Below, in pieces: positions 21,072-51,635 of a stretch of 64,000 nucleotides of DNA. Numbering within the stretch: position 1 is the first letter of the stretch; each line of letters starts with the position of its first letter. Position numbers and translations under genes: made by a program. A model generated the notes under the pieces. That model did no database searches and was not told the DNA's origin. It was given only the letters and a program-made list of their open reading frames with translations. Origin of the DNA: Silvibacterium bohemicum (GTDB lineage: Bacteria > Acidobacteriota > Terriglobia > Terriglobales > Acidobacteriaceae); assembly GCF_001006305.1 (NCBI RefSeq), contig NZ_LBHJ01000020.1, positions 186,001 through 250,000 on the forward strand, given 5' to 3'.

Positions 21072-21362
21072 GTGCGAAAACCAAATACGATTAGTCTCGT
21101 TAGTTCGGCCGGTCTCCTGGCCGTCGTCGCTGCTGCCTCCTTGCATGTCGAGCATGTGAATGCCCAAGTCAATGTTCCGAAGCCAACCTATCGCTATGAG
21201 AAATGCTATGGCATAGTCAAGGCAGGCCAGAATGACTGCTTTGGTGTTGGAAATAGCTGCGGGGGAACCTCCAAGAATGACAACGATCCCCAGGCCTGGA
21301 TCTATGTGCCCAAAGGAACCTGCAGTAAGATTGTCGGCGGAAAATTGTCGCCGCCATCCTAA
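21072..21362 (+). CDS. bufA: Bufferin precursor (DUF2282, BufA1-type copper-binding RiPP)
   Basis: A 96-residue precursor from GTG at 21072 with AGGAAA just upstream. A signal peptide ([20 protein letters not shown]) is followed by the DUF2282 core with four cysteines: [20 protein letters not shown], then SCGG and [10 protein letters not shown] near the end. In characterised bufferins the core cysteines are oxidised to copper-binding heterocycles by the BufB/BufC pair, and the exported peptide buffers copper in the periplasm. The next two genes are exactly those partners, so the assignment is strong. No DoxX-like bufD gene follows. Confidence 0.92.
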
Positions 21363-21386
21363 ACTGCGGCCGAGCATTTTATCGAC

Positions 21387-22307
21387 ATGAATACCACTCG
21401 CAGTAATCCTGGGACAGCACACCGGCCTTTCGAAGATCCGAGCTCAGTTAGGCTTGAAAGGTCGGTGGGCATTGGCCTGCGCACGCCTCATAGCGAACGC
21501 TTTCTCGATCCACAGGCGCCTCCGGCGATTCCCTGGCTTGAAGTTCTTGCGGAGAATTACTTCGACCGTGGTGGCATTCGCCACCAGATGCTTTGCCGGA
21601 TAGCCGAGCGCTATCCGATCAGTGTGCATGGCGTTGCCCTGTCGCTCGGGTCTTCAGAGGGAATCGTTCCGGAGCACCTCGAGCGTCTGGCGCTTCTGGT
21701 CGAGGATGTAGAGCCGCGCATGGTCTCCGAGCATCTGGCATGGAGCCGGTCGGGAGATATCTACTATAACGATCTACTACCTCTGCCTTTGACCGAAGAA
21801 ACGCTCGATATCGTATCCACGAATGTTGACCGGACGCAGAATCGCCTGGGCCGAACGATCCTCGTTGAAAATCCTTCGGGATACCTTGCCTTCGAACAAT
21901 CGACGATGAGCGAGGCCGCTTTTCTCACTCGCCTCACGGAGCGCACGGGTTGCGGGCTGTTGCTCGATGTGAACAACCTTTTTATCAGCGGCGCCAATTT
22001 GGGCGTCGACGTCGGCGAGTGGCTTGCGGTCGTTCCTCCAGAGGTCATCGGCGAGATCCACCTCGCCGGCCATGAAGAGGGCGGTACGCCCGATCATCCT
22101 CTGCTCATCGATACCCATGGAGCGCCGGTAACCGCTGAAGTATGGCATCTATACGCCGCTGTGCTCCAGCGGATCGGTCCCCGACCAACGATGATCGAAT
22201 GGGACAGCGACGTACCGTCGCTGGACGTTCTGCTCGACGAGGCAGCGCGGGCCCAAAAGATCATGGATCGGATTGTGGAGAGTGATGCACCCTCGCATGC
22301 TTTATGA
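21387..22307 (+). CDS. bufB: Bufferin maturase BufB (DUF692/MNIO multinuclear iron oxygenase)
   Basis: A 306-residue TIM-barrel enzyme of the DUF692 (UPF0276, MNIO) family, the same family as methanobactin MbnB. Visible family marks are VGIGLRTPHSERFLD at the start, WLEVLAENYFDRGG near residue 50, ISVHGVALSLGSSEG near residue 77, MVSEHLAWSR near residue 112, VENPSGYLAFE, LLLDVNNLFIS near residue 191, EIHLAGHEEGG near residue 224 and MIEWDSDVPS near residue 274. The Glu, His, Asp and Asn residues in these patches form the iron cluster in family structures. It modifies BufA cysteines together with BufC. It starts 24 bases after bufA and overlaps bufC. Confidence 0.95.
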   Translation: MNTTRSNPGTAHRPFEDPSSVRLERSVGIGLRTPHSERFLDPQAPPAIPWLEVLAENYFDRGGIRHQMLCRIAERYPISVHGVALSLGSSEGIVPEHLERLALLVEDVEPRMVSEHLAWSRSGDIYYNDLLPLPLTEETLDIVSTNVDRTQNRLGRTILVENPSGYLAFEQSTMSEAAFLTRLTERTGCGLLLDVNNLFISGANLGVDVGEWLAVVPPEVIGEIHLAGHEEGGTPDHPLLIDTHGAPVTAEVWHLYAAVLQRIGPRPTMIEWDSDVPSLDVLLDEAARAQKIMDRIVESDAPSHAL

Positions 22308-23145
22308 TTTTCAGCGCAGCTTCGCCTCGGGGCTTCTGACAGAAAGAGCGAGAGAAGCTCCGCCTGATGGCTTGCGAGTTGATGCGCTCGGTTTTGAAGT
22401 GTACGTGCACCACGCTCGCGCATCGCTGTGCATAGCGATCGAAGAAGCCTTTCCAATTACGAAGCGGCTGGTCGGCGCCGATTTTTTTACAGCAATGGCC
22501 GGGCAATTCGTGACAGCTCACCCTCCGACGCAGGGTTGGCTTTCGTCCTACGGAGAAGCGTTTCCCCGATTTGTGGCTCAGTATCCTGCTGCGGCAGACT
22601 TGGCTTATCTGGCCGATGTGGCTCGGATAGAATGGGCTCGTGTGCGCGCGGCGAGCGCTCCAGATGATCCAGGTCTTGACCTGAAATCGTTAGCGACTCT
22701 TGATGAGGCCGCTTTAGGAAGTCTGTGTCTGAGTCTTCACGGCGCTGCCACTCTCGTCTGTTCACTTTTCCCTGTTTTCGATATCTGGCAAGCGCACCTC
22801 CACGTCGACGGCGATGACCAAGTCCCGGAGATCGATCTCGCGGCTGGTCCGCAACATGTTCTGGTCACACGGGCCGGCCCGCTGGAAGTCAACGTCTCGG
22901 TACTTTATCCCAGCGATGCAGCATTTATGGCGGCTCTGATGAAGAATGAGTCTTTCGCCGCCGCGTGTGAAGTTGCAGTTTCGACAGAGACGGATTACGA
23001 CCTCGGCTCAAGGTTAGGCGACCTCGTGTGCCGACGGGCGTTGGCGGCTTTACCCTCGCTTGGTATCCCGGGGGGAAGGACCGCGTCGCGGTTCTCTCCT
23101 CCAACGAGCATAGACCTCGATTGTGCGTGGAGTGCCCGTGAATGA
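22285..23145 (+). CDS. bufC: Bufferin maturation partner BufC (DUF2063)
   Basis: A 286-residue protein. I chose ATG at 22285 (GGAGAG just upstream) over an upstream TTG; it overlaps bufB by 23 bases. The N-terminal half is the DUF2063 domain (MLYDFQRSFASGLLTER; HHARASLCIAIEEAFPITKR; PAAADLAYLADVARIEWARV), which in MbnC/BufC-type partners binds the precursor leader and pairs with the MNIO enzyme. The C-terminal half (AGPQHVLVTRAGPLEVNVS) is the usual beta-rich extension. It is the last gene of the operon; a long hairpin spans its stop codon. Confidence 0.92.
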   Translation: MHPRMLYDFQRSFASGLLTERAREAPPDGLRVDALGFEVYVHHARASLCIAIEEAFPITKRLVGADFFTAMAGQFVTAHPPTQGWLSSYGEAFPRFVAQYPAAADLAYLADVARIEWARVRAASAPDDPGLDLKSLATLDEAALGSLCLSLHGAATLVCSLFPVFDIWQAHLHVDGDDQVPEIDLAAGPQHVLVTRAGPLEVNVSVLYPSDAAFMAALMKNESFAAACEVAVSTETDYDLGSRLGDLVCRRALAALPSLGIPGGRTASRFSPPTSIDLDCAWSARE

Positions 23146-34121: not shown

Positions 34122-35237
34122 TCAGGCACCGATTGCAGCTTTGTCACCTTGAGGGATTGCTGCGGAGAAATAGCGTTTCCGCAGCCAGAAAGCGACGTTC
34201 ACAAGCCCGATCAGTGCGGGAACTTCTACCAGTGGGCCGATTACACCGACGAATGCCTCACCGGAGTTCAGGCCGAAGACTGCCACCGAAACCGCAATCG
34301 CCAACTCGAAGTTGTTGCCTGCTGCGGTGAACGAGAGTGTCGCCGTCTGCGCGTAGTCCGCGCCCAGCTTCCGTCCCATCCAGAAGCTCACCAGGAACAT
34401 GACGAGGAAGTAGATCACCAGCGGCACAGCAATGCGAAGCACATCAAAGGGTAGCTTCACGATGAGGTCGCCCTTGAGGCTGAACATAACGAGGATCGTG
34501 AAGAGTAATGCGATCAGCGTGAAGGGGCTGATTCGCGGAATGAACTGCGTTTTGTACCACTCCTCGCCCTTAGCGCGGAGAAGCGCAAACCGGGTCAACA
34601 TACCGGCGAGAAACGGAATGCCCAAATAGATGAAAACACTCTTGGCAATCGGCCCTATGCCGATGTTCACCACTGAACCCTTCAATCCAAACCAAGTGGG
34701 CAAAATGGTGATGAAGACCCAGGCATAGAGGCTGTAGAAGACCACTTGGAACACGCTATTCAGTGCCACCAGACCAGCAACATAATCCGTATCGCCTTCC
34801 GCGAGTTCGTTCCAGACGAGAACCATCGCAATACAGCGTGCGATGCCGATAAGAATCAGGCCACGCATATAGGCGGGGTAGCCATGCAGGAGAGTGATGG
34901 CAAGCAGAAACATCAACGCCGGGCCGATGATCCAGTTCTGTAGCAGAGAAAGCCCCAGCACCCGGCGATTGCGGAAGACCTGGCCCAGCTTCTCATAGCG
35001 AACCTTCGCCAGCGGCGGATACATCATGATGATGAGTCCGATGGCGATGGGAATGTTTGTCGTGCCCGACTGGAAGCTGTTCACGAAGGCCGCCGAACCG
35101 GGGATGAAATGCCCAAGTCCAACGCCGATAGCCATAGCGAGGAAAATCCAGAGGGTAAGGAAGCGGTCGAGAAACGATAGCTTCTTGCGCGGCATCGGTG
35201 CGCACACCTGGCCTTGGGTATAGGGGATGCTGGACAT
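34122..35237 (-). CDS. acr3: Arsenite efflux permease, ACR3 family
   Basis: A 371-residue transporter with ten hydrophobic helices. I chose ATG at 35237 (GAGG five bases upstream) over the GTG two codons before. Family marks are [20 protein letters not shown] near residue 66, the conserved Cys in [19 protein letters not shown] near residues 131-149, and [20 protein letters not shown] near residue 306, with the essential Glu. It exports As(III) with the proton-motive force. It starts 2 bases from the arsR stop, so both are read from one promoter. Confidence 0.95.
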
Positions 35238-35239
35238 AT

Positions 35240-35659
35240 TCACCTCGTAGCGAAAACAGTGGATGGTTCAACTGGCATTGGCAGCGGCGCTCCCTGTAAG
35301 GTCACGAACTTCTCCGGTGTACAGCACGCCTTGGTGAGCTTTGCCCGGTCCGACTGCATGGTCTTTTCTTCTTTGAACCATTGCAAAATTTCTTGCAGCA
35401 CTCTCGCCGCCCCTTCATTGGGCGGCATCACGATGCGGTAGTGCATCCACTTGCCATCGCGCCGAGTCGTTACGATGCCGGCATTCCGCAGGTACGCCAA
35501 GTGACGGGAGATTTTCGGCTGGGGCTGATTCAATATCTCCACGAAATAGCAGACGCAAATCTCCTGGTCCCCCATCAGGTTCAGGAGCCGCAGCCGGGTA
35601 TTGTCTCCGAGTGCCTGAAAGAATCGCTCAATATCAAAAGCCTTCTGTCTAGTCGCCAT
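35240..35659 (-). CDS. arsR: ArsR/SmtB-family arsenite-responsive repressor
   Basis: A 139-residue winged-helix repressor. [20 protein letters not shown] is the typical opening, [20 protein letters not shown] carries the ELCVC-type As(III)-binding cysteines near the recognition helix, and [20 protein letters not shown] completes the wing. Extra cysteines (ACCTPEKF) lie near residue 112. It should bind the operators at 35680-35724 and fall off when arsenite binds. The -10 box ends 6 bases before the ATG and no ribosome site exists, so its mRNA may be leaderless. Confidence 0.93.
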
Positions 35660-35665
35660 GTCGCG

Positions 35666-35693
35666 ATTATATGCGCATTGACAGATGTGTCCA
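35666..35693 (-). promoter_or_regulatory. arsR-acr3 promoter (possibly leaderless)
   Basis: On the minus strand TGGACA (35693-35688), a 16-base spacer and TATAAT (35671-35666) form a good sigma70 promoter. The arsR ATG is at 35659, so transcription would begin at or next to the start codon. Confidence 0.65.
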
Positions 35694-35724
35694 GTGGAAA
35701 TATATTCACTTTGACAGATATGTC
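35678..35724 (+). promoter_or_regulatory. arsM promoter with two ArsR operator-like repeats
   Basis: TTGACA (35678-35683), a 17-base spacer and TATATT (35701-35706) form a near-consensus promoter for arsM. The 14-base sequence TTGACAGATGTGTC (35678-35691) is repeated as TTGACAGATATGTC (35711-35724). Each contains GACA-N4-TGTC. The first overlaps the -35 boxes of both genes and the second covers the arsM start point, so a bound repressor would shut both directions. Confidence 0.7.
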
Positions 35725-35733
35725 GGAGGGCCT

Positions 35734-36651
35734 ATGACTGAGCAGTTGCTTGAATCGGTGAGATCGAAGTATGGGGCTGTTGCGGAGAGCACACTCTCCA
35801 GCAAAGATGCGGGCGTGAAGGCAGTTGCCGAAGCCTTTGGCTACAGTACGGAGGAACTGACCTCGATTCCTGCCGAAGCCAACATGGGGCTTTCGTGCGG
35901 AAACCCGACTGCGATTGCTTCCATACGTCCAGGTGAAGTGGTCGTCGATCTGGGTTCGGGCGGCGGAATGGATGTTTTTCTGGCGTCGCCTCTGGTCGGT
36001 CCCACTGGAAAGGCCATCGGCATCGACATGACGCCAGCGATGATTGAGCGCGCCCGAACAAACGCACAGAACGGCGGATACCGGAATGTTGAGTTTTATC
36101 TTGGGACCATCGACCACCTTCCCCTTGCGGATGGATCGGTCGATTGCGTCATCAGCAACTGCGTCATCAATCTTGCTCCCGACAAGCCCGCTGTCTTCCG
36201 CGAGATTGCGCGTGTCCTTAAACCAGGTGGAAGACTGGCGGTAAGCGATATTGCACTCAAGGCTGAGTTGCCGCCTGCCGTGGCGCAGAGCATGGCGGCG
36301 TATGTCGGCTGCATCGGTGGAGCGATCAAGATAGACGACTACCGCGAAGGGCTGCTCGCCGCAGGCTTTGAACACGTCGAGATTGTCGATAGCGGGGCCG
36401 ATCTGAACGCCTATGCCAAGGTCGAAAATCAGGCCGGGTGCTGCTCTCCATCAATGGATACGGCCAGTAGCTTGACGGTGCCGGCAGCCTCTTGCTGTTC
36501 TACCGATGCGTCCATGCCAGCCAGCCTCCACGAAGACCTAACCAAACTGCTCTCTGAATACGATGTCAACGCAGCCGCAGCCAGCGTCAAGGTGTATGCG
36601 GTCAAGCCTGGTGCAAACAAAAACTGCTGTGGCCCGACCTGCTGTGCGTAA
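35734..36651 (+). CDS. arsM: Arsenite S-adenosylmethionine methyltransferase
   Basis: A 305-residue enzyme from ATG at 35734, four bases after GGAGGG; longer frames have no ribosome site. It transfers methyl groups from SAM to As(III) in the cytoplasm, giving methylated, partly volatile arsenicals. Seen are LSCGNP (Cys near residue 53), the SAM loop [32 protein letters not shown] with the second As-binding Cys near residue 152, and GCIGGAIK near residue 200, the third Cys. The C-terminus has extra cysteine pairs (GCCSPS, SCCSTD) and ends NCCGPTCCA, typical of longer ArsM forms. It is divergent from arsR and followed by arsC after 24 bases. Confidence 0.95.
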
Positions 36652-36675
36652 GAGTGCAGAGGAAAGATACTGAAA

Positions 36676-37167
36676 ATGCCAACACACTACAACGTCATGT
36701 TTCTTTGTACAGGAAACTCAGCCCGCTCCATCATGGCCGAGGCGATCATGAACCGCAAGGGGCGCCCCAACTTCACCGCATATAGCGCGGGCAGCCATCC
36801 CGCTGGGTTCGTTCGCCCTGAAGCTCTCAAGCAGATCGCGGCTGCTGGACTCAGTACAGAAGGATTCTCCAGCAAGTCATGGGACGAATTCGCCAAACCT
36901 GGTACTCCACCACTCCATTTCGTCTTTACCGTTTGCGACAACGCAGCCAAGGAGGTCTGCCCGGTGTGGCCTGGGCAGCCCTTGACCGCACATTGGGGAG
37001 TGCCCGATCCTGCTGCCGTGGTGGGTACGCCCCAAGAGATCGAGCGCTCCTTCCGTGATGCGTTCTCCATTCTGGATCGCAGAATCAGCCTGTTCTTATC
37101 GCTTCCTCTTGCGACACTCGACCAGCTTGCTCTGCAAAAAGAAATCGACCAGATCGGGCATCAGTAG
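36676..37167 (+). CDS. arsC: Arsenate reductase, LMW-phosphatase (thioredoxin-coupled) type
   Basis: A 163-residue cytoplasmic enzyme that reduces As(V) to As(III). The P-loop MFLCTGNSARSIMAEAI (near residue 8) carries the nucleophilic Cys; further Cys occur in FTVCDNAAKEVCPVWPG, the pair used in the disulfide relay; WGVPDPAAV holds the general-acid Asp. AGAGGAAA upstream serves as the ribosome site. It lies between arsM and a second LMW-phosphatase-type gene. Confidence 0.93.
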   Translation: MPTHYNVMFLCTGNSARSIMAEAIMNRKGRPNFTAYSAGSHPAGFVRPEALKQIAAAGLSTEGFSSKSWDEFAKPGTPPLHFVFTVCDNAAKEVCPVWPGQPLTAHWGVPDPAAVVGTPQEIERSFRDAFSILDRRISLFLSLPLATLDQLALQKEIDQIGHQ

Positions 37168-37196
37168 GCCACAGACTTAGAAGGAGATTTATTGGG

Positions 37197-37613
37197 ATGC
37201 GTACTTATATCTTTGCCTGTATTCACAACGCTGGACGTTCGCAGATGTCGGCGGCACTCTTCAACCGGCTTGTCGATCCTGAGTTGGCTCATGCCATCTC
37301 TGCCGGAACTCATCCTGCCGAGCACGTTCACCCCGTAGTTGTGGACGCGATGCGAGAGTTGGGAATCGACCTCAACCATGCCAAGCCGCAAAAGCTCACG
37401 GCAGAACTGGCGCAGGATGCCGAACTGCTCATCACGATGGGTTGCGGGGATGAATGCCCTTACGTTCCCGGTCTCCGGCGCGACGACTGGCCGCTTCCCG
37501 ATCCCAAAGGACAAGGAATAGAAACCGTGCGTCAGACCCGCGACGAAATCAAGCAAAGAGTCCTGCATCTCTTGGAGCAGGAAAAGTTGAGCACGAACAC
37601 GATCCCAGTGTAG
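37197..37613 (+). CDS. Second LMW-phosphatase-family arsenate reductase-like protein
   Basis: A 138-residue protein with AAGGAG ten bases upstream. The P-loop reads IFACIHNAGRSQMSAALFNR near residue 5; TMGCGDECPYVPG near residue 81 supplies the two resolving cysteines; DDWPLPDPKGQ holds the acid Asp. It is shorter and diverged from the preceding arsC, as in loci with two ArsC types. It may use another reductant or be an arsenate reductase with different affinity. Arsenate reductase is the likely function. Confidence 0.85.
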   Translation: MRTYIFACIHNAGRSQMSAALFNRLVDPELAHAISAGTHPAEHVHPVVVDAMRELGIDLNHAKPQKLTAELAQDAELLITMGCGDECPYVPGLRRDDWPLPDPKGQGIETVRQTRDEIKQRVLHLLEQEKLSTNTIPV

Positions 37614-38947: not shown

Positions 38948-39730
38948 TCAACGTGGCCTAGAGGCTCTGTGATCTGACGAGGGAGATTGAATGGGAGTTG
39001 CCGATATTCCCGGCTCCCCCTTCGGCCCTATGGGTCCAGGAGGACCTTCAGGTCCTCTCAGAAGTTTTTGAATGTCTGGATCTTTGCGAATAGCCTTGGC
39101 TGCCGCACTGCCTGGGCTTTGGATGGAAGCACTCGCGAAACCAAGCATAGCTACCAACGCGCTCCCTGCCGCAAAGTTTCTAATCGCGGTGTGTGCTACC
39201 GCCATTTGAGTCACTTTGAAATTTACATTCTGCTCGGCGTGCAGATGGCGTTCGCAATTTCGGACTGCCAGTTGCTGATTCGTGTCGCGAGACCCAATGA
39301 TGGAAGACGGTAGAAGATCTTCGATCGTAGGCGCATGCCACGTCATTCGAGTGAGGCCCCGAATCGCTGCAATGGTTGAGCCGACTATTTGCAAATTTAG
39401 ATAGAGCAGCGCAAGCCCTGCGAGCGATCGGACCCATAAGTTGCTGTCACTCAGACCGCCGTTCACGAGAACGAATGTCCCACCTAACAGAAGGCTCGCT
39501 GTAATCGAGGTGAGGCCCAAAATGGTATTGAGTCTCGCCTCAACCCTTTCGAGACGCTCCGCCTCATAGCGCTCCAACTCGGCATATGCTTTCACAACGG
39601 ACTGCGGATCAGAATGACTGCTGACAAAATCCAGGCATTCCTGTTCCCGCTTCTTATTCAGATTGACTTCATCTGAAGACAAGGGTTCCGCGAGAGGGTA
39701 GATCCAGTCGCGTAGGGCTGCGAACCTCAT
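38948..39730 (-). CDS. Membrane protein of the graspetide locus, collagen-like C-terminus
   Basis: A 260-residue protein from ATG at 39730, overlapping the ATP-grasp stop as ATGA. A charged helical N-terminus is followed by three likely membrane helices (TILGLTSITASLLLGGTFVL; GLALLYLNLQIVGSTIAAI; FAAGSALVAMLGFASASI). The C-terminus carries Gly-x-y triplets, GPEGPPGPIGPKGEPG, near residues 228-243, then a Ser/Pro tail. The family is unknown. The 4-base overlap means it is translated with the ATP-grasp ligase, so export, anchoring or self-protection are possible roles; none is shown by sequence. Confidence 0.7.
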   Translation of the reverse strand: MRFAALRDWIYPLAEPLSSDEVNLNKKREQECLDFVSSHSDPQSVVKAYAELERYEAERLERVEARLNTILGLTSITASLLLGGTFVLVNGGLSDSNLWVRSLAGLALLYLNLQIVGSTIAAIRGLTRMTWHAPTIEDLLPSSIIGSRDTNQQLAVRNCERHLHAEQNVNFKVTQMAVAHTAIRNFAAGSALVAMLGFASASIQSPGSAAAKAIRKDPDIQKLLRGPEGPPGPIGPKGEPGISATPIQSPSSDHRASRPR

Positions 39731-40689
39731 GGAGCTTCTCCCGCCAGCCAATTTGCAATAGCCTCTGATATGCCGAGATTAAGCATGTCATCTAGCCACA
39801 GCCACTGGCCATTTGGATTGATTTCCAGAAAGAAATATTGACCATCTGGGGTCAGGACGAGATCGATGGCCCCATAACTGAGAGACAACCGCGACATCAA
39901 CTCCAAAAGCTTTTCGGCTAAGCAATTTGGGAGTTCTATCGGGAGATGTGGAAGATTGGGGTTCTTGGTCATACGCCAATCTATGCTTGCACTGGGATCC
40001 GATTGTGAGTCGATGGCCGCTGCAAACACTTTCCGCCCAACGATTGTCACTCGGACGTCATACTTTTTGGGCAAGAGTTCTTGATATATCGTGGGGCTCA
40101 AACGAGCATCTGCAAGGTCCAGGAAGTCTTCATCTTTCAGTTTTGTAGTGAAGACCGCGCATTCAACTCCATTCTTTACTACATGACCACTTCGAACAGG
40201 TTTGGCGATGAGATCCTTTACATGGAGTTGGAACTCTCGGATGCTCTCCGGCCTGTTAGATATGAGGGTCTTCGGAACCTTCAGTCCCAGATCCTTCGCC
40301 ACCTGAAGCTGGAAAGGCTTAAATTCCGCCTGCCATATTGCCGCAGGCTGGCTCATCCACCGTGCCTGCTGCCCCAGCAGGCCACCGATGAGAGCGCTAC
40401 GATTTTCGCGGACACAGAAATCGTAGGTCCCAGTATCCATCCCGTCTGGAATCGACGGAGCACGAACTCGCCGATACCAGACAGACTCGAACCACGTCTC
40501 CGCCGGTCGCTCTTTCCAAAAGATAGACTGAGAATCCTCCGCGCCGAAGGAATAACTGATCTCGGAAGCAAACGGTAAGTCTTCGGTGTTGACGCGGACC
40601 AACGGTACACCGCGAGAATTTAGGGCCTCAACAACGGAATCGGTGGCTAAATCGACGATCGTGCTGACGATAAGTACCGTTCCGCTCAT
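39727..40689 (-). CDS. ATP-grasp RiPP maturase (MvdD/graspetide ligase family)
   Basis: A 320-residue ATP-grasp ligase. The N-terminus VLIVSTIVDLATDSVVEALN and the pattern VWYRRVRAPSIPDG are typical of MvdC/MvdD-like graspetide ligases. The ATP-binding core has FKPFQLQVAKDLGLKVPKTL, LIAKPVRSGHVVKNG, and the Mg-binding end YFFLEINPNGQWLWLDDML. Such enzymes join Asp/Glu side chains to Thr/Ser (esters) or Lys (amides) in a precursor core. Its start overlaps the stop of a precursor gene (40686-40886) by 4 bases, and two further precursor genes lie upstream. Which linkages form is not visible, but the cores offer Thr and Asp/Glu and few Lys, so esters are favoured. Confidence 0.9.
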   Translation of the reverse strand: MSGTVLIVSTIVDLATDSVVEALNSRGVPLVRVNTEDLPFASEISYSFGAEDSQSIFWKERPAETWFESVWYRRVRAPSIPDGMDTGTYDFCVRENRSALIGGLLGQQARWMSQPAAIWQAEFKPFQLQVAKDLGLKVPKTLISNRPESIREFQLHVKDLIAKPVRSGHVVKNGVECAVFTTKLKDEDFLDLADARLSPTIYQELLPKKYDVRVTIVGRKVFAAAIDSQSDPSASIDWRMTKNPNLPHLPIELPNCLAEKLLELMSRLSLSYGAIDLVLTPDGQYFFLEINPNGQWLWLDDMLNLGISEAIANWLAGEAP

Positions 40690-40886
40690 CTCCAGTCTGT
40701 CGATTCAGTATTGACGGCAGTCTTCGTTTGACCTTTGCCCATGAGGTCAGAGTTCTTCCAACCAGGCACCCAAGTTCCGTTCTCATTGACCTCAGAGATC
40801 TGGCGCACTGGATCGAATCTCAGAATTGGGCCATCCTGTGAAGAGAGCGGTTGGGCAAAACGTAATAGCAAGGGTTCATTGTGCAT
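40686..40886 (-). CDS. Graspetide precursor C
   Basis: A 66-residue precursor. The leader begins MHNEPLLLRFAQPL, and a second block GPILRFDPVRQISEV resembles the DPxxQ segment of known ATP-grasp-modified RiPP precursors. The core is probably QTKTAVNTESTDWR, which aligns with the tails of the two precursors upstream (T-x-V-x-x-E-[TS]-T-D). GAGG lies about 9 bases before the ATG. The stop overlaps the ATP-grasp start (ATGA), which links it firmly to the ligase. Confidence 0.8.
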   Translation of the reverse strand: MHNEPLLLRFAQPLSSQDGPILRFDPVRQISEVNENGTWVPGWKNSDLMGKGQTKTAVNTESTDWR

Positions 40887-40897
40887 AATCAGCGGCC

Positions 40898-40978
40898 TCA
40901 GTTGTTGCTAACATCTACTTCGCTAAGAGCGATGACCATAGTGCGGGGACATAGATCACTCGTCGTCTGTGGTTTCAT
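40898..40978 (-). pseudogene. 26-codon relic of a fourth precursor leader
   Basis: Inside the tail of precursor B, ATGAAACCACAGACGACGAG opens a 26-codon frame starting MKPQTTS, ending before precursor C. The same bases (ATGAAACTACAGACGACA) start precursor B inside the tail of precursor A as MKLQTTT. So the unit 'core tail doubling as next start' occurs twice, and the second downstream leader has lost its LLRFA motif. It may be a decayed copy or a chance frame. Confidence 0.4.
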
Positions 40979-41150
40979 GCCGGACTCTTGTAAAGCGGGT
41001 ATCTCGAAGTAAACAACCTTCCAGGCGATGATCTGGCTGCCCCTCTATGTCATCTTGCCCGTGGAATGTGATGACTTTGGAGATCTCGTTCTCAAGTGGC
41101 GCGGCAAAACGTAAAAGGAATGGCGTCTTAGTTGTCGTCTGTAGTTTCAT
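40956..41150 (-). CDS. Graspetide precursor B
   Basis: A 64-residue precursor. MKLQTTTKTPFLLRFAAPLE contains the leader motif (P-[FL]-LLRFA-x-PL) shared with precursor C. The core, DTRFTRVRHETTDDE, is nearly the same as that of precursor A. The ATG lies within the last codons of precursor A in another frame (23-base overlap), so translation is probably coupled; no separate ribosome site is seen. Confidence 0.75.
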   Translation of the reverse strand: MKLQTTTKTPFLLRFAAPLENEISKVITFHGQDDIEGQPDHRLEGCLLRDTRFTRVRHETTDDE

Positions 41151-41301
41151 GTTTTACATCAGTGCAGCGTGTTCCCCGCGCCAAAGCCCCTATCGAAGTC
41201 ACTATAACTGACGCAGGCAAATCGTCTTCATCGGTGAGAAAGTCCAGATTGCGATTCGGCAATCGCGTTTCCGTCGTTGCTTGACTATCAAAATCGATCA
41301 C
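41128..41301 (-). CDS. Graspetide precursor A
   Basis: A 57-residue precursor from GTG at 41301, chosen for GGAGG 7 bases upstream; the longer frame from TTG at 41337 has none. It lacks the LLRFA leader motif but ends GTRCTDVKHETTDDN, matching the core of precursor B at V-[KR]-HETTDD. The acidic middle (FLTDEDDLPASVIV) differs from the others. It stands first, 74 bases after the PIN gene. Lack of the shared leader makes modification less certain than for B and C. Confidence 0.65.
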   Translation of the reverse strand: MIDFDSQATTETRLPNRNLDFLTDEDDLPASVIVTSIGALARGTRCTDVKHETTDDN

Positions 41302-41375
41302 GCTAATTCCTCCATAAGTCTCACCTTCACGAATCAATGATAACCGCTGGACCGTCTTGGTCCTGTGTCTTGCAT

Positions 41376-41885
41376 CTACCGCATCCCTTCGTATCGCTTC
41401 AGGTAGGCCGTCAAATCTTTCTTCGGCAGATGCACCGCCGGGTCGACCGCGAATTGGGACAGGATGGCGTGGAGTGAATTAGCGGTAGAGAGTTGGTTCC
41501 TCAGTAACTCGTCGAATACCCAGAGGATTCCGTGAACCTCCATCTGGTTTTCGTCTGCAAGGGCGCGCAATTGCGAATCACCCGTTAACAGGATGCATCC
41601 GGGATGAGACTCCGCCAGAACGTAGGCGAACCCGTCATGTATTGAAAGCCGCGGCTTGGCACGAATCACATCTCTCGCTCGGGAGACCTGAGCGCCAGGA
41701 AGATCGACGACCTTCAGGCCGCCGCCGAGCAGCTCCTGCTTCTCAAGATCAGTGAAGCTGAGCAACTCGTCCTCGAAGAGGGTATTCGGAATCATGATCT
41801 CGAACGGCAATCGCAAGAATATAGCGAGTAAATCAGCCTTGCGAAGATCGATGAGACAGCTGCTATCACTGATGATGATCCGCAT
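41376..41885 (-). CDS. PIN-domain putative RNase, toxin-like
   Basis: A 169-residue PIN-fold protein. The first acid is in IIISDSSCLIDLRKADLL near residue 3; MIPNTLFEDELLSF provides the second; SIHDGFAYVLAES the third; and CILLTGDSQLRALADENQME (TGD near residue 100) the fourth. It would cut RNA with divalent metal. Its start overlaps the XRE-ImmA gene by 20 bases, and such pairs behave as toxin-antitoxin-like or mobile-element regulators. It lies upstream of the precursor genes on the same strand. Confidence 0.8.
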   Translation of the reverse strand: MRIIISDSSCLIDLRKADLLAIFLRLPFEIMIPNTLFEDELLSFTDLEKQELLGGGLKVVDLPGAQVSRARDVIRAKPRLSIHDGFAYVLAESHPGCILLTGDSQLRALADENQMEVHGILWVFDELLRNQLSTANSLHAILSQFAVDPAVHLPKKDLTAYLKRYEGMR

Positions 41886-42966
41886 ACTGCTCTTGCGGTC
41901 CTTTCAAGCCGGCTTCAACTTTGGGTAAGGAGATACGCAGTAATTCAGCAGCTTTGCTTAGGGAAACGAAATCCTCAGCTAAGGCTCGATAGCAAAGACG
42001 TTCGAAGCGTAGCGGGCATTCGCGTTGGCCTCTTTCGGAGGGAGGTTCAAGCTCATGTGGCTCTTGAGTCCGCCATCCGCGAGCGATGGTTTGAAACGCG
42101 TAGGTTAAGGTCGATTCACTGATGATGCCCACTTGTCTAAGGCGCATCACCAACGCTGCGCCGCTGACTCGATAAAGCCTCTTAAGGTCAATCAGCTCTC
42201 TGTAACCGAGGGCATTGCGTTGTTTGCCTGCTTCGCGCATCAAGTGCTCTCGCGGCATTAGGAACGCCCCTGCGAAGAGGTTCGCCGCCTTCTCTTCATC
42301 TTTGTCCGACAGGCAATCAGTGTCGATTAACCTGTGTAGCAATTCGTGCGCGAGGGTGAGACGTCGGCGCTCCAATGAGAACTTGCGATTGATCACAATC
42401 ACGGGAAGGCGGGGCTCTCCTTCTTCCCGAGACACCATACAAGTGAACCCTGACACCCGATCAGGAAGAGGAACGATCAGAACCTTCAGACCCTTTTCCT
42501 CGAGCAGTTCGGTCATGTTGGGGATCGGATCGATCCCGAGTTTCCATCTCTCTCTCACTTCTTTCGCGAGATCTTCCGCATCTGCGGGCGCATTCAATAC
42601 CTTCAGAGAGGCAAACGGAGACTTCCACTCCGCGCTGTCGAGTTCGAGCACATGCTCGATTTGGAGATACCGTTCGATCCATTCGAGCACCTCGGTCTCG
42701 ACTGCGGCACGATCGGAAGAGGTGGTATTTGCTTTGGTTCGGAACTCGACGCCAGAGAGGACGAGCCCCTGAGTGTCCATCAGATAGCTGACCGTTACCT
42801 TGAGTGCCTTGGCGAGAGCCAGGAGGACGCCAGAACTCGGAATATCCTCCCCGCGCTCATATTTGCCGATTGCCTGAGGGGTGACTCTGTCGTCCATGGC
42901 AGCAGCCAGATCCCGTAAGGAAAGCCCTGCTTTGCGGCGCGCCAGGCGAATTCGGTCAGCGATCAT
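41866..42966 (-). CDS. XRE helix-turn-helix plus ImmA/IrrE metallopeptidase protein
   Basis: A 366-residue protein with GAGGAGG directly upstream. Residues 1-70 are an XRE DNA-binding domain (IRLARRKAGLSLRDLAAAMD; QAIGKYERGEDIPSSGVLLA). Residues ~150-260 hold the ImmA/IrrE peptidase with the zinc motif LTLAHELLHRLIDT and the downstream Glu region EEKAANLFAGAFLMP. A C-terminal helical part with a second HTH-like segment (DFVSLSKAAELLRIS) follows. It probably represses its own operon and cleaves a partner, and pairs with the PIN protein. It may also influence the graspetide genes downstream. Confidence 0.88.
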   Translation of the reverse strand: MIADRIRLARRKAGLSLRDLAAAMDDRVTPQAIGKYERGEDIPSSGVLLALAKALKVTVSYLMDTQGLVLSGVEFRTKANTTSSDRAAVETEVLEWIERYLQIEHVLELDSAEWKSPFASLKVLNAPADAEDLAKEVRERWKLGIDPIPNMTELLEEKGLKVLIVPLPDRVSGFTCMVSREEGEPRLPVIVINRKFSLERRRLTLAHELLHRLIDTDCLSDKDEEKAANLFAGAFLMPREHLMREAGKQRNALGYRELIDLKRLYRVSGAALVMRLRQVGIISESTLTYAFQTIARGWRTQEPHELEPPSERGQRECPLRFERLCYRALAEDFVSLSKAAELLRISLPKVEAGLKGPQEQYADHHQ

Positions 42967-48143: not shown

Positions 48144-51100
48144 TTAAAGTTTGGACCTACCGGGAACGAGCGTGAAGGTCGCACTCATCAGCTTTTCTCT
48201 GAGTGACTGGGGCACTGATGCACCCAGTCCATCGGCAACATCAATGAGAACACAGCCTAGTTCTCCTCGACCACCATGCTCCTGAATGACCTTCACAAGG
48301 CTGGCAGGACGCTGAAAATTGAAGCCGTTCGCCAAAACATAATTACTCCAGGCGTTCGCAACGATTGACGCAAACACGCTTCCAACTCCCCAGAACGGGG
48401 CAAGGGACATTGTCAACCACCTCGCCCATTTTACTTGGGCGGTCAATATGTCGACAGTGCGTTCATCTCTCACAGCGAGCAGGCCGAATGACCGGAGCAA
48501 GTTTGCAGCCTGCCCGATATGGTCCTCCGAGGCGTTCTCCTCAGAGGCAAAGTCGGCGTAGTGCAAAGTCCCGTTCCTGACGGAGTAAAGCACTCGCTGC
48601 GCTTCTTCCCAGGGTGCAGGCACGCTGGCAATTTCGCGCTGCGCAGTACAAGCTCGAACCAGTTCCTCAATACGTTCCATGCCACGCGCACGGTCATTCA
48701 AGATTTCAGCGGTTACGCCGATGAGGCTCGGCAGAAGACCCAAAATTACAGTGTTAGACTCTGTCCGCACGGGGTCAAGGGAAGGAAGACGCAGCCGGAG
48801 CAATCGCGGGTTGTCCCGAACGACGGCCTCGGGGAACTCAATTGGATCGGATTTGGCGAGGCTTCGAACTCCGTCTGCAACCGCATCTATGGCCTCACGA
48901 TAACGAGACTGTTCGAGGGCATACGGCGCGGCTTGAAGCCGGAAACCGTTGCCTTGATTCGACTGACCGAACTGCACGGCGCAGTCATACGTGGTCTGCG
49001 CCCATTCGGCAGCCTCTCTGAACCGTCCCAGCTTCTCTGCAAACCAGGTCATGTTCCCGGGCAAAACAAAGAGGATCTTGTCGGAGTAGCGGTCGGATAT
49101 GTCAGCGTAGTCCGTGATGAACATCCCGAGATCGGGTTTTACCAGAGAAGTGCCGCCGAACTCTGAATCCTGTCCGAAGCGATTCCCCCAATAAGCGGTG
49201 TGATTGGCGATGAGCACATAGATTTGTTTCCATCTTGGTGATTCCTCCCGCGCTTCAAGGGTCGCTCGGACCACATGCGTCCATTCATCGAAGAGCGCTT
49301 GCTCGCCCTCGGTAAGCCACAGAAATGTGGCGAGTTCCGCTCGCGCTCTGATTCTGCCGAGGGGCGAACGAAAATCGCCGTCTTCAGCAAGTTGAACGGC
49401 TTCATAAAATGGAGCGGCATCCGGACGACCCGCGCGATAAAGTGCATGACCGTACCGCAGTAGATTGGACTGACGATGTGGAGTGAGATGCTTCTCGTGA
49501 TATTCAACGCCTCGCCCTAGCCATGGCAATGCATCAGCCCAACGATCGACGTCCGTAAGCCAGAGTCCAGTGCCTTGGGCGACGAGGAATCGACCCGCAG
49601 CTGCATTCGGTCCTATATGGGCGGAGAAGAACGCCTCAGCTTGCCGTATGGCCTCTTCCGCATCTCCTATGTGGACGATTCGAATCGCTTGCGCTGCGCG
49701 GAGAAGTCCACCAGAGACAAGGCTGGAGTCCCAGCGAGACACCACTGTTTCGAGTTCGCCGATCAAGCGCGTCAGGCCGGCCCAGTCCCGCTTCTGTTCC
49801 GGCAGCTCCTGCTCTTCTATCCAGAGTGAATCAAACATGCGGCATGCCGATTCAGGCGCAAATCGCTCTGCCATCATTGCGCGCCGCTCTTCCTCGCTGA
49901 GAGCATCGACTGCAGCGACCCACTGTCTGACACCATCGCGGGATCGAATCTGCATGGCAACGGACCAAAAGAATTCACTGGAAGAATGGCCCCGAAACGC
50001 CTTCAAAATCCTGGGGTCTGAAATCCGAGACTGCATCTCGATCGATTCCGTGATGAACGGTAGTGCTTCGATGGGACTCTTTGAAACCAGTTGGAGTGCG
50101 ATGGCGGACAGAGATGCGAATACCATCACCGGTTCCGAGATTGTCTCCTTCGCTTTCATCAGGTCACGGAGATCTGCGAGTTGTGTGCCGTAGCCCTGTC
50201 CGCGCTGTATCGCGATGGCAACCTGCATCCCGCGGATACAAATCTTCAATCCGAGGTTCATCTGCGTCGGCAACGGCAAACCCTTCCAGAGCGACAGCAG
50301 GTTGCCTGGCTCTACATCGGGTCCCGCATTGAGTAACGAATAGAGAGCCCTAAGCAATATGCTTCCTGCTTGGTCATACTCTTCCGCAATCACCAAATGG
50401 CTGATGACAGAATTTGTTTCTAACTGGTTGAGCTTCTTGCGCGAGAGGATCCACCCGGCCACCCTCTTATGTACTTTGTTCCTGACAGCTGCGGCCAAGT
50501 TATTATCGCCAAGTGCGGCAATCAGCGGGGAGGTCCTCCACTGTGTAGTCCCTTGTTGCTGCAGCCATCGACCGGACAGCTTTGAGAGCCGCGCAAGCGC
50601 TTCTGGTATCTCTGGTTCTATACGTGCAATTTCGAGTGCCTCTGACTCGGTGAAGTCCCGCATCACAGCGTTTAGCCGGAAAAGCAGTTCGCGCGTCTTT
50701 GCAGTTTCTGTTGAAAGAAGCCTTCGCTGGACCTCGTTTTTTAGGTCAGAAGCAAACGCCTGGCCAATGAGGCCTTGCCACACGTCGTCGCTAAGAACCC
50801 ATTCATTGTCCGTCAGAAACTCTACAAGCAGTGCGGTCAAATCAGGATGGCCCTGCGTCAGACCAAGAACTACGCCCCTGAACTGGCTATGGTTCACCGC
50901 GGCTGGCGCTCCATAGGTAACGAGTAGTTCTCGCACTTCGTCATCATCATATGAGGGGACCGGCACAACTTCGAACTCCGACCGAAGCTGCAACGGGAGT
51001 GGATAAAGCGAACAACATATGAGCTTTATGTTTCCGCTAGCCGCGGCTCGGGCGAGTACAGCTAGGCGTGTGACGAAAGACGGATCGGCCGCGCTTTGGT

Positions 51101-51635
51101 CGATATTGTCGAGGACGACTGCCAGATCTTTGTCGAGTTTGCCAACAACCTTCCCAAAGTCCGGTCTTCGATTGGAGCGAAGGTTGATTTGATCCGAAAG
51201 AACGGATTCGAGTACGGAGCCGGGGCGCAGATCACCATTTGCTTGAAAATCAATCCAAATGAGACGCGTTGCTTTTTCTGTAGTCGCTCTGGCAAGCTCT
51301 GACCTCCCGGAACCGGAATCTCCTCGTAAAAGAACAGGTTTGGGCTTTGATAGAGCTCCGCTCACCAACGACGACAGGCGAGCTCTTGATATACGCCGGT
51401 TCGGTGCCGTGGGTGCACCTGTGACGATGAGATCGGCTTCCTTTTCGATCTTCGACACAGGAAGTGTGTTTGCGCCAGCCGATGCCTGAACGGCTTCAAG
51501 CACCGCAGCCAAGACTTCCGGCGGCGCGTCCTTGTCCACATTGAAGACATTGATCGTAGACGAAGCCCCATACGTCGCCTGAGCGATGTATGTCCCGGAG
51601 GCCTGTTGCGTCGATTGGAATGGCTTCTTCGGCAA
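48144..51635 (-). CDS. STAND-type NTPase with TPR-like C-terminus
   Basis: A 1163-residue protein from TTG at 51635, three bases after the 133-residue gene stop. The short N-terminus (GTYIAQATYGASSTINVFNV) resembles the tail of the small partner. The NTPase domain has Walker A KPVLLRGDSGSGRSELARAT near residue 98 and Walker B DLAVVLDNID near residue 168, with a winged-helix segment after it. From about residue 400 to the end are helical repeats, probably TPR-like sensors. The design is that of prokaryotic STAND (NLR-like) immune or apoptosis-type switches. No effector domain is seen in this chain, so the partner may carry that job. Confidence 0.75.
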   Translation of the reverse strand: MPKKPFQSTQQASGTYIAQATYGASSTINVFNVDKDAPPEVLAAVLEAVQASAGANTLPVSKIEKEADLIVTGAPTAPNRRISRARLSSLVSGALSKPKPVLLRGDSGSGRSELARATTEKATRLIWIDFQANGDLRPGSVLESVLSDQINLRSNRRPDFGKVVGKLDKDLAVVLDNIDQSAADPSFVTRLAVLARAAASGNIKLICCSLYPLPLQLRSEFEVVPVPSYDDDEVRELLVTYGAPAAVNHSQFRGVVLGLTQGHPDLTALLVEFLTDNEWVLSDDVWQGLIGQAFASDLKNEVQRRLLSTETAKTRELLFRLNAVMRDFTESEALEIARIEPEIPEALARLSKLSGRWLQQQGTTQWRTSPLIAALGDNNLAAAVRNKVHKRVAGWILSRKKLNQLETNSVISHLVIAEEYDQAGSILLRALYSLLNAGPDVEPGNLLSLWKGLPLPTQMNLGLKICIRGMQVAIAIQRGQGYGTQLADLRDLMKAKETISEPVMVFASLSAIALQLVSKSPIEALPFITESIEMQSRISDPRILKAFRGHSSSEFFWSVAMQIRSRDGVRQWVAAVDALSEEERRAMMAERFAPESACRMFDSLWIEEQELPEQKRDWAGLTRLIGELETVVSRWDSSLVSGGLLRAAQAIRIVHIGDAEEAIRQAEAFFSAHIGPNAAAGRFLVAQGTGLWLTDVDRWADALPWLGRGVEYHEKHLTPHRQSNLLRYGHALYRAGRPDAAPFYEAVQLAEDGDFRSPLGRIRARAELATFLWLTEGEQALFDEWTHVVRATLEAREESPRWKQIYVLIANHTAYWGNRFGQDSEFGGTSLVKPDLGMFITDYADISDRYSDKILFVLPGNMTWFAEKLGRFREAAEWAQTTYDCAVQFGQSNQGNGFRLQAAPYALEQSRYREAIDAVADGVRSLAKSDPIEFPEAVVRDNPRLLRLRLPSLDPVRTESNTVILGLLPSLIGVTAEILNDRARGMERIEELVRACTAQREIASVPAPWEEAQRVLYSVRNGTLHYADFASEENASEDHIGQAANLLRSFGLLAVRDERTVDILTAQVKWARWLTMSLAPFWGVGSVFASIVANAWSNYVLANGFNFQRPASLVKVIQEHGGRGELGCVLIDVADGLGASVPQSLREKLMSATFTLVPGRSKL

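Follow-up and report, generated by a model that had tools for sequence, protein, structure and literature searches.

A probable graspetide operon in Silvibacterium bohemicum with a membrane protein as its most constant partner

What do three short genes, an ATP-grasp ligase gene and a membrane-protein gene make together, and what is the membrane protein for? The question is raised by a locus of the acidobacterium Silvibacterium bohemicum, in a stretch of 64,000 nucleotides (contig NZ_LBHJ01000020.1, positions 186,001 to 250,000; assembly GCF_001006305.1) that we refer to as the window. Comparison at the sequence level makes it very probable that the locus is a graspetide operon. We further consider it likely, if well short of certain, that this is a membrane-partnered operon, in which two nested esters would form in each peptide core and the membrane protein would be the dedicated partner of the product.

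The ligase and its precursors

The ligase scores above the cut-off of the MvdD pre-ATP-grasp family (PF21068; 46.6 bits, cut-off 27) and matches six PDB sequences with E-values from 9.5e-49 to 3.9e-16, including CdnC, AMdnB, an 'MvdD-like pre-ATP grasp' protein and two 'ATP grasp ligase' entries, which we take to be MdnB and MdnC. Its best NCBIfam model is TIGR04187 (E = 1.2e-81, 274.3 bits), yet this score is below the cut-off of 350, and the ligase is also below the equivalog cut-offs of MvdD (234.2 versus 475) and MvdC (221 versus 425) and below the NCBIfam cut-off for grasp-with-spasm. Because PF21068 and the PDB sequences are matched while these four models stay sub-threshold, the enzyme is, as judged by family, a graspetide synthetase outside the cut-offs of all curated subfamilies scored. 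An ATP-grasp identity unrelated to ribosomally synthesized and post-translationally modified peptides (RiPPs) was rejected, as the models for RimK and glutathione synthetase give much lower scores. The preliminary description of this locus had called the ligase MvdD-like and had named a position in a non-RiPP clade as refuting its proposal; neither the curated-family search nor the ligase tree places the enzyme there.

That description also agrees with a re-reading of the sequence: the three short precursor genes (A, B and C) have the endings it gave and lie directly upstream of the ligase gene, B and C share a leader motif (P-x-LLRFA-x-PL there, P-[FL]-LLRFA-x-PL in our wording), and precursor C and the ligase, like the ligase and the membrane protein, overlap by 4 bases. 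Between precursors A and B the overlap is larger, 23 bases. An ending of the form T-x(1,2)-T-x4-[EK]-xx-D occurs in exactly three of the 559 six-frame open reading frames (ORFs) of at least 40 amino acids (a.a.) in the window, and these three are the precursors; in the genome as a whole (6.46 Mb), ETTDDx followed by a stop has two matches, each within this locus, and the backward control has none. Two of the three precursors have the leader motif Phhx(1,2)h (PFLLRF in B, PLLLRF in C, absent in A), which according to the available text of PMC8939145 is found in about half of graspetide precursors.

Related operons and their cores

The same operon is found in two other acidobacterial genomes: a metagenome-assembled genome (L016, JACQZR010000159.1) with two precursors, a ligase 53% identical to that of the window and the membrane protein, and a genome of the same class (L002) with three precursors, a ligase 51% identical and the membrane protein. 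At three other loci (L017, L045 and L042) the membrane protein is encoded on a fragment at the end of a contig. Six of the eight cores of the three complete acidobacterial loci match TRxTx[VI]xxETTDD exactly, and the core Thr and Glu/Asp are kept in the homologous loci, so the loss of conservation that the preliminary description had named as refuting was not observed.

In our genome searches, only the top candidates from an initial screen are scored. They gave ligase matches, at E <= 1e-25, in 12 of 150 relatives and in 15 of 399 genomes of the class (the genome of the window being in both counts); among the loci fetched from these genomes, only those of the window's genome and of L002 have the operon. 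The membrane-protein search of the 399 class genomes returned the same two genomes plus a spurious match (L048, in genome G165; E = 3.5e-4), rejected because no gene there fits, and in a phylum sample of 396 it returned the window's genome and one fragment, L042. None of eight other sampled genomes of the genus, several of them incomplete, showed the operon. This patchy distribution fits an accessory, transferred gene set.

The acidobacterial core is not isolated: by sequence similarity, it is joined by a proteobacterial/phage lineage with cores mostly like TKTxxxxExDD. A tblastn search with the ligase led to plasmid loci of Croceicoccus (L050), Sinorhizobium (L055), Agrobacterium (L054) and Pseudomonas (L057). 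Further loci are on a phage-labelled gut scaffold (L067) and in a Leptospira phage (L066; KF114876.1, 56614-62561), which encodes a complete set of precursor, ligase and membrane protein (no paper about this phage gene set was among the matches listed). IMG/VR contributed L068, L069 and L070, the last being a contig related to the Leptospira phage; L071 and L084 repeat the phage locus itself. In each of the nine loci, one precursor gene with two to six repeats is followed by a related ligase gene and then by an overlapping membrane gene. The 32 repeats are mostly like TKTxxxxExDD, with TKT in 21 of them. Profile comparison shows homology between the precursors of both lineages (hhalign 95.5%, 0.3% when reversed, using all eight whole acidobacterial precursors), and likewise between the leaders (95.2%, reversed 0.1%, using four of the eight acidobacterial leaders), with the proteobacterial/phage rows ended after the first core.

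The 40 cores of the 12 loci were selected by a pattern demanding the donors, E or K at +5, and D at +7 or +8. All 40 have T or S at position 0, 39 have E at +5 (the remaining one has K), and +8 is acidic in all 40, a count that is independent only where the D demanded by the pattern is at +7 (27 rows). The second T/S donor is at -2 in 33 cores and only at -3 in seven. When each core is described by its nearest outer donor and its first acceptor at +7 or beyond (counted from +5), the 32 proteobacterial/phage cores are (2,2) in 27 cases and (2,3) in five, and the eight acidobacterial cores are (3,3) in seven cases and (2,3) in one. Given this recount and the acidic +8 in all 40 cores, we do not claim a coupled change of donor and acceptor spacing.

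We propose that the ligase would bind the PxLLRFA leader and activate the core carboxylates with ATP, and that two nested esters would then close in each core, an inner one between Thr(0) and Glu(+5) and an outer one between Thr(-3) and Asp(+8), so that each core would lose 36 Da and become a hairpin. This connectivity is expected because of the analogy with fuscimiditide, whose inner and outer esters lie in a stem-loop (as described in the available text of PMC12291112). Graspetide ligases phosphorylate a carboxylate with ATP, after which Ser, Thr or Lys attacks it (PMC13097080, available text). It is very unlikely, in our estimate, that the ligase is inactive or carries out another ligation (e.g. 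amino-acid addition) while the conservation of the cores has some other cause: the ExNPxGQWxW region is conserved among the aligned ligases, their reading frames are intact, and the core donors and acceptors are conserved. What would suit such a reading is the patchy distribution, together with two deviant cores, that of precursor C (TKTAVNTESTDWR, with a WR end) and L002c (TRETRVPRKTTDDA, in which Glu is replaced by Lys).

The membrane protein and the role of the product

Of the module's partners, the membrane protein is the most constant. In all 12 complete loci with these cores its gene and the ligase gene overlap, by 4 to 20 bases (starts as chosen); the preliminary description had given the overlap, correctly, and had said nothing more of this partner. 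The acidobacterial and the proteobacterial/phage membrane proteins are homologous (hhalign 98.5%, E = 1.7e-15; reversed 0.3-0.5%). A scan of 54 fetched ligase loci (duplicates excluded, the window counted apart, some loci with little or no downstream DNA) found the protein in 15; the profiles were built from known members, and the new finds are L022, L025 and L081. The core was found by script in 10 of the 54 loci and by hand in an eleventh (L050, whose ORF exceeded the filter); with the window there are 12, and each of them has the membrane protein. Four more loci have the protein: L017, which is cut upstream, and the three new finds. Since these three pair it with other repeats or cores (YGETTxTxTREGADQ, [ST]KKxDxETGEDQKG and ETSDPDEF; the repeat-rich precursor of L081 is downstream), the partner protein has a wider distribution than the core. 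The locus L024 has a precursor of the L025 type and a cut downstream gene that resembles the membrane protein by reading, with no profile match. Three chance-like matches of the core pattern are in loci without the membrane protein (L026, L029 and L043). On plasmids, the protein is beside a graspetide-type ligase in all five records matched with the L050 protein and in all four matched with the L054 protein, and the same is true of the single phage match of the L057 protein (this search missed the Leptospira phage); plasmid searches with the membrane proteins of the window and of L022 gave no match.

Three hydrophobic segments are present in 13 of 14 members (L068 has six), and the loop between the first two is short, with one to three K/R. 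From the charge bias, the N-terminal part and the middle loop are predicted to be cytosolic and the collagen-like tail probably points outward. A Gly-X-Y tail is found in all five full acidobacterial members and in L042, and in none of the nine others; the Pfam Collagen model scores below its cut-off on the tail, and no Pfam family is above its cut-off for the window's protein. This three-transmembrane-segment protein, the gene of which appears to be translationally coupled to that of the ligase, would be a dedicated partner of the product; in our view its most likely task is to retain or export the modified peptide, or to respond to it, at the inner membrane. In favour of this reading, the operon shows no peptidase-transporter gene on reading.

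The product may instead be an ordinary secreted graspetide, a protease inhibitor or an antimicrobial, with the membrane protein as its exporter or as the producer's immunity protein. Serine proteases are inhibited by microviridins and plesiocin (PMC13097080, available text), a role in peptide transport has been proposed for the uncharacterized cluster 18 membrane protein of thuringinin loci (available text of PMC8939145), and on reading the operon we saw no other transporter. An exporter with three transmembrane segments and no Pfam family above cut-off would be unusual, however, and by reading we saw neither a double-glycine cleavage site nor a protease. We therefore regard secretion as unlikely, if the most serious of the functional alternatives.

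A different role is suggested by the proteobacterial/phage membrane proteins, five of nine of which weakly match the PADLOC models of PycTM (E from 3e-5 to 0.036, three under 0.001), a protein that disrupts membranes (PMC11224242, available text). A profile of these nine members aligns with six PycTM proteins over 151 columns (hhalign 80.3%, E = 1.4e-5; reversed 0.3-0.9%); the six reference proteins were drawn from six of 250 class genomes and are identified as PycTM without regard to cyclase neighbours. A smaller proteobacterial set gives 42.6%, the acidobacterial members give 0.2%, and both lineages pooled give 8.9% (2.8% with the smaller set). No acidobacterial member (of five) matches the PADLOC models, and the window's protein has no match up to E 0.1. 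With a HMMER profile of the nine members, all six PycTM proteins go undetected (best E 2.4). Because of this HMMER result and of the low acidobacterial and pooled values, the PycTM link, drawn from sequence profiles, is a lead; a PycTM origin of the acidobacterial membrane protein has no direct support. A membrane-effector switch, in which an intracellular modified peptide would set a PycTM-like effector in a conflict or phage-related module, is improbable in our view: the carriage on plasmids and phages would suit it, but L066, L067 and L070 have no PADLOC match, L050 has a weak AbiZ match, and no PycC cyclase was matched among the six window proteins (PADLOC) or seen among the operon genes. 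More doubtful still is the broader idea that such graspetides are not secreted at all and are intracellular ring-locked ligands gating a PycTM-like membrane protein, as a mobile switch used with several unrelated cores on plasmids, phages and some acidobacterial chromosomes.

Several observations weigh against the membrane-partnered operon with nested esters that we favour. Precursor A lacks the LLRFA leader motif, two cores deviate as described, and the nested connectivity rests on analogy. The outward position of the tail is unsure because the tails of acidobacterial members have 8-9 K/R, roughly the same number as their middle loop. Structure models of the membrane protein are weak (predicted local distance difference test, pLDDT, 68.8 for the second and 53.8 for the first), and a fold search with the second model gave no match at E <= 0.001 in the PDB (329 matches) or among viral structures (402); NINJ1 came up only at E 1.3 and 2.5 and was not accepted as a fold relative. 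Finally, in the ligase tree the three acidobacterial ligases are one clade (100/100) and the nine proteobacterial/phage ligases share one side of a weaker branch (92/93) with L024 and L025, and the two groups are not sisters in the best tree. Placing all ligases of both lineages in one clade is neither rejected nor supported by the approximately unbiased (AU) test (p-AU 0.158; 0.137 with an earlier set), and both common descent of the whole gene set and reshuffling of ligases are possible.

Layout, neighbouring genes and known systems

Coordinates of the operon and of other features of the window are collected in Table 1. Precursor A starts at a GTG with a good ribosome site (GGAGG) ahead, and a longer ORF would begin with TTG at 41337; for the membrane-protein gene a longer ORF reaches 39751. 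Promoter and terminator scans gave one and three sites (2.9 and 4.4 in shuffled sequences), and Rfam and tRNA scans of the window gave no match. Ahead of the operon, an overlapping pair of genes (XRE-M78 protein and small protein) ends 74 bases before precursor A; we do not count this pair as part of the module, as it was not seen upstream in L016 or within 0.9 kb upstream in L002. Outside the window, other graspetide-type ligases (L003, L013 and L052) are followed by a protein of 340-360 a.a. that is SurA/PPIase-like by reading, comparable to MirC, the partner of rosaritide (PMC13097080, available text).

Table 1. The proposed graspetide operon and other features of the window
Feature	Positions	Strand	Remarks
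Precursor A, 57 a.a.	41128-41301	minus	C-terminal core TRCTDVKHETTDDN, common to L016 and L002; no LLRFA leader
Precursor B, 64 a.a.	40956-41150	minus	Leader TPFLLRFAAPL, homologous to proteobacterial leaders; core TRFTRVRHETTDDE
Precursor C, 66 a.a.	40686-40886	minus	Leader EPLLLRFAQPL; deviant core TKTAVNTESTDWR; 4-base ligase overlap
Graspetide-synthetase-like ATP-grasp ligase, 320 a.a.	39727-40689	minus	PF21068, TIGR04187 and PDB matches
Membrane partner protein, 260 a.a. from ATG	38948-39730	minus	Charged N-terminal helical part, three hydrophobic segments, collagen-like tail GPEGPPGPIGPKGEPG
XRE-M78 protein and small protein, mutually overlapping	41376-42966	minus	PADLOC RmrA (E 7e-50) and PDC-S70 (5.5e-7); small protein presumably PIN-like
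Second RiPP-type set	21072-23145		Short Cys-containing ORF (21072-21362, by eye), presumably bufferin-like; MNIO enzyme PF05114 (329 bits); DUF2063 partner
Arsenic-type run beside the operon	34122-37613		ArsR-like, ACR3-like, methyltransferase and two reductase-like genes (by reading)
1163 a.a. protein	48144-51635		Weak AAA_16 match below cut-off; STAND-NTPase-like layout

Is the system already known? The best reading is that the acidobacterial form, with one core per gene and a collagen-like tail on the partner, is a new variant (graspetide groups 2 and 3 being compared by their motifs). It is nevertheless quite conceivable, though we lean the other way, that core and membrane protein belong to a numbered graspetide group or to Makarova clusters 18 or 40, and that the locus is only a new member: 24 plus 19 groups (PMC13097080) and 174 families (PMC8939145) are given in the available texts, and the latter also leaves unexplained two clusters of membrane proteins, which occur 198 and 86 times. 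On the other side, none of seven precursors scanned (A-C of the window and those of L050, L054, L055 and L057) is above a Pfam or NCBIfam cut-off, the words Acidobacter and collagen are absent from the main text of PMC8939145, and the words Acidobacteri and Leptospira from that of PMC13097080. A literature search for the motif strings gave no match, and no paper on this gene set was among the matches listed.

Among known systems, microviridin MvdC/MvdD (MdnB/MdnC) is alike in the pre-ATP-grasp domain and in a PFFARFL-like leader, but the window's ligase is under both equivalog cut-offs, and the operon has no TxKxPSD core and no transporter that we could see. TgmA/TgmB (SAV_5884 type, TIGR04187; graspimiditides) provides the best NCBIfam model for the ligase and, by reading, a comparable leader layout; here the differences are the sub-threshold TIGR04187 score, the lack of a methyltransferase in the window's operon, and cores other than the window's in the two Streptomyces loci that we read. 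With PycTM of Pycsar the likeness is the remote profile similarity of the proteobacterial/phage members; it differs in that no PycC cyclase is seen at the window's operon and the acidobacterial members have no match.

Plesiocin has the motif TTxxxxEE and thuringinin TxxTxxxExxDxD. By these motifs, both have the same donor-to-acceptor order as our cores, and plesiocin the same inner T-x4-E spacing; they differ in the spacing of the outer donor and acceptor, and the acidobacterial form has one core per gene (their ligases are outside our tree). The acidobacterial cores would also contribute a new distance between the Thr and Glu/Asp that are linked. The two families (groups 2 and 3) have their cores in repeats, each of which carries two ester links, as stated in the available text of PMC12291112.

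Most predicted graspetides are without a known role. Here one membrane-protein family is constant while the cores change, and the sets are carried on plasmids and phages, so the purpose of graspetides may become testable through a single partner protein. A parallel, likened by description only, is that of Makarova clusters 18 and 40 (available text of PMC8939145), in which an uncharacterized membrane protein is likewise encoded beside an ATP-grasp ligase.

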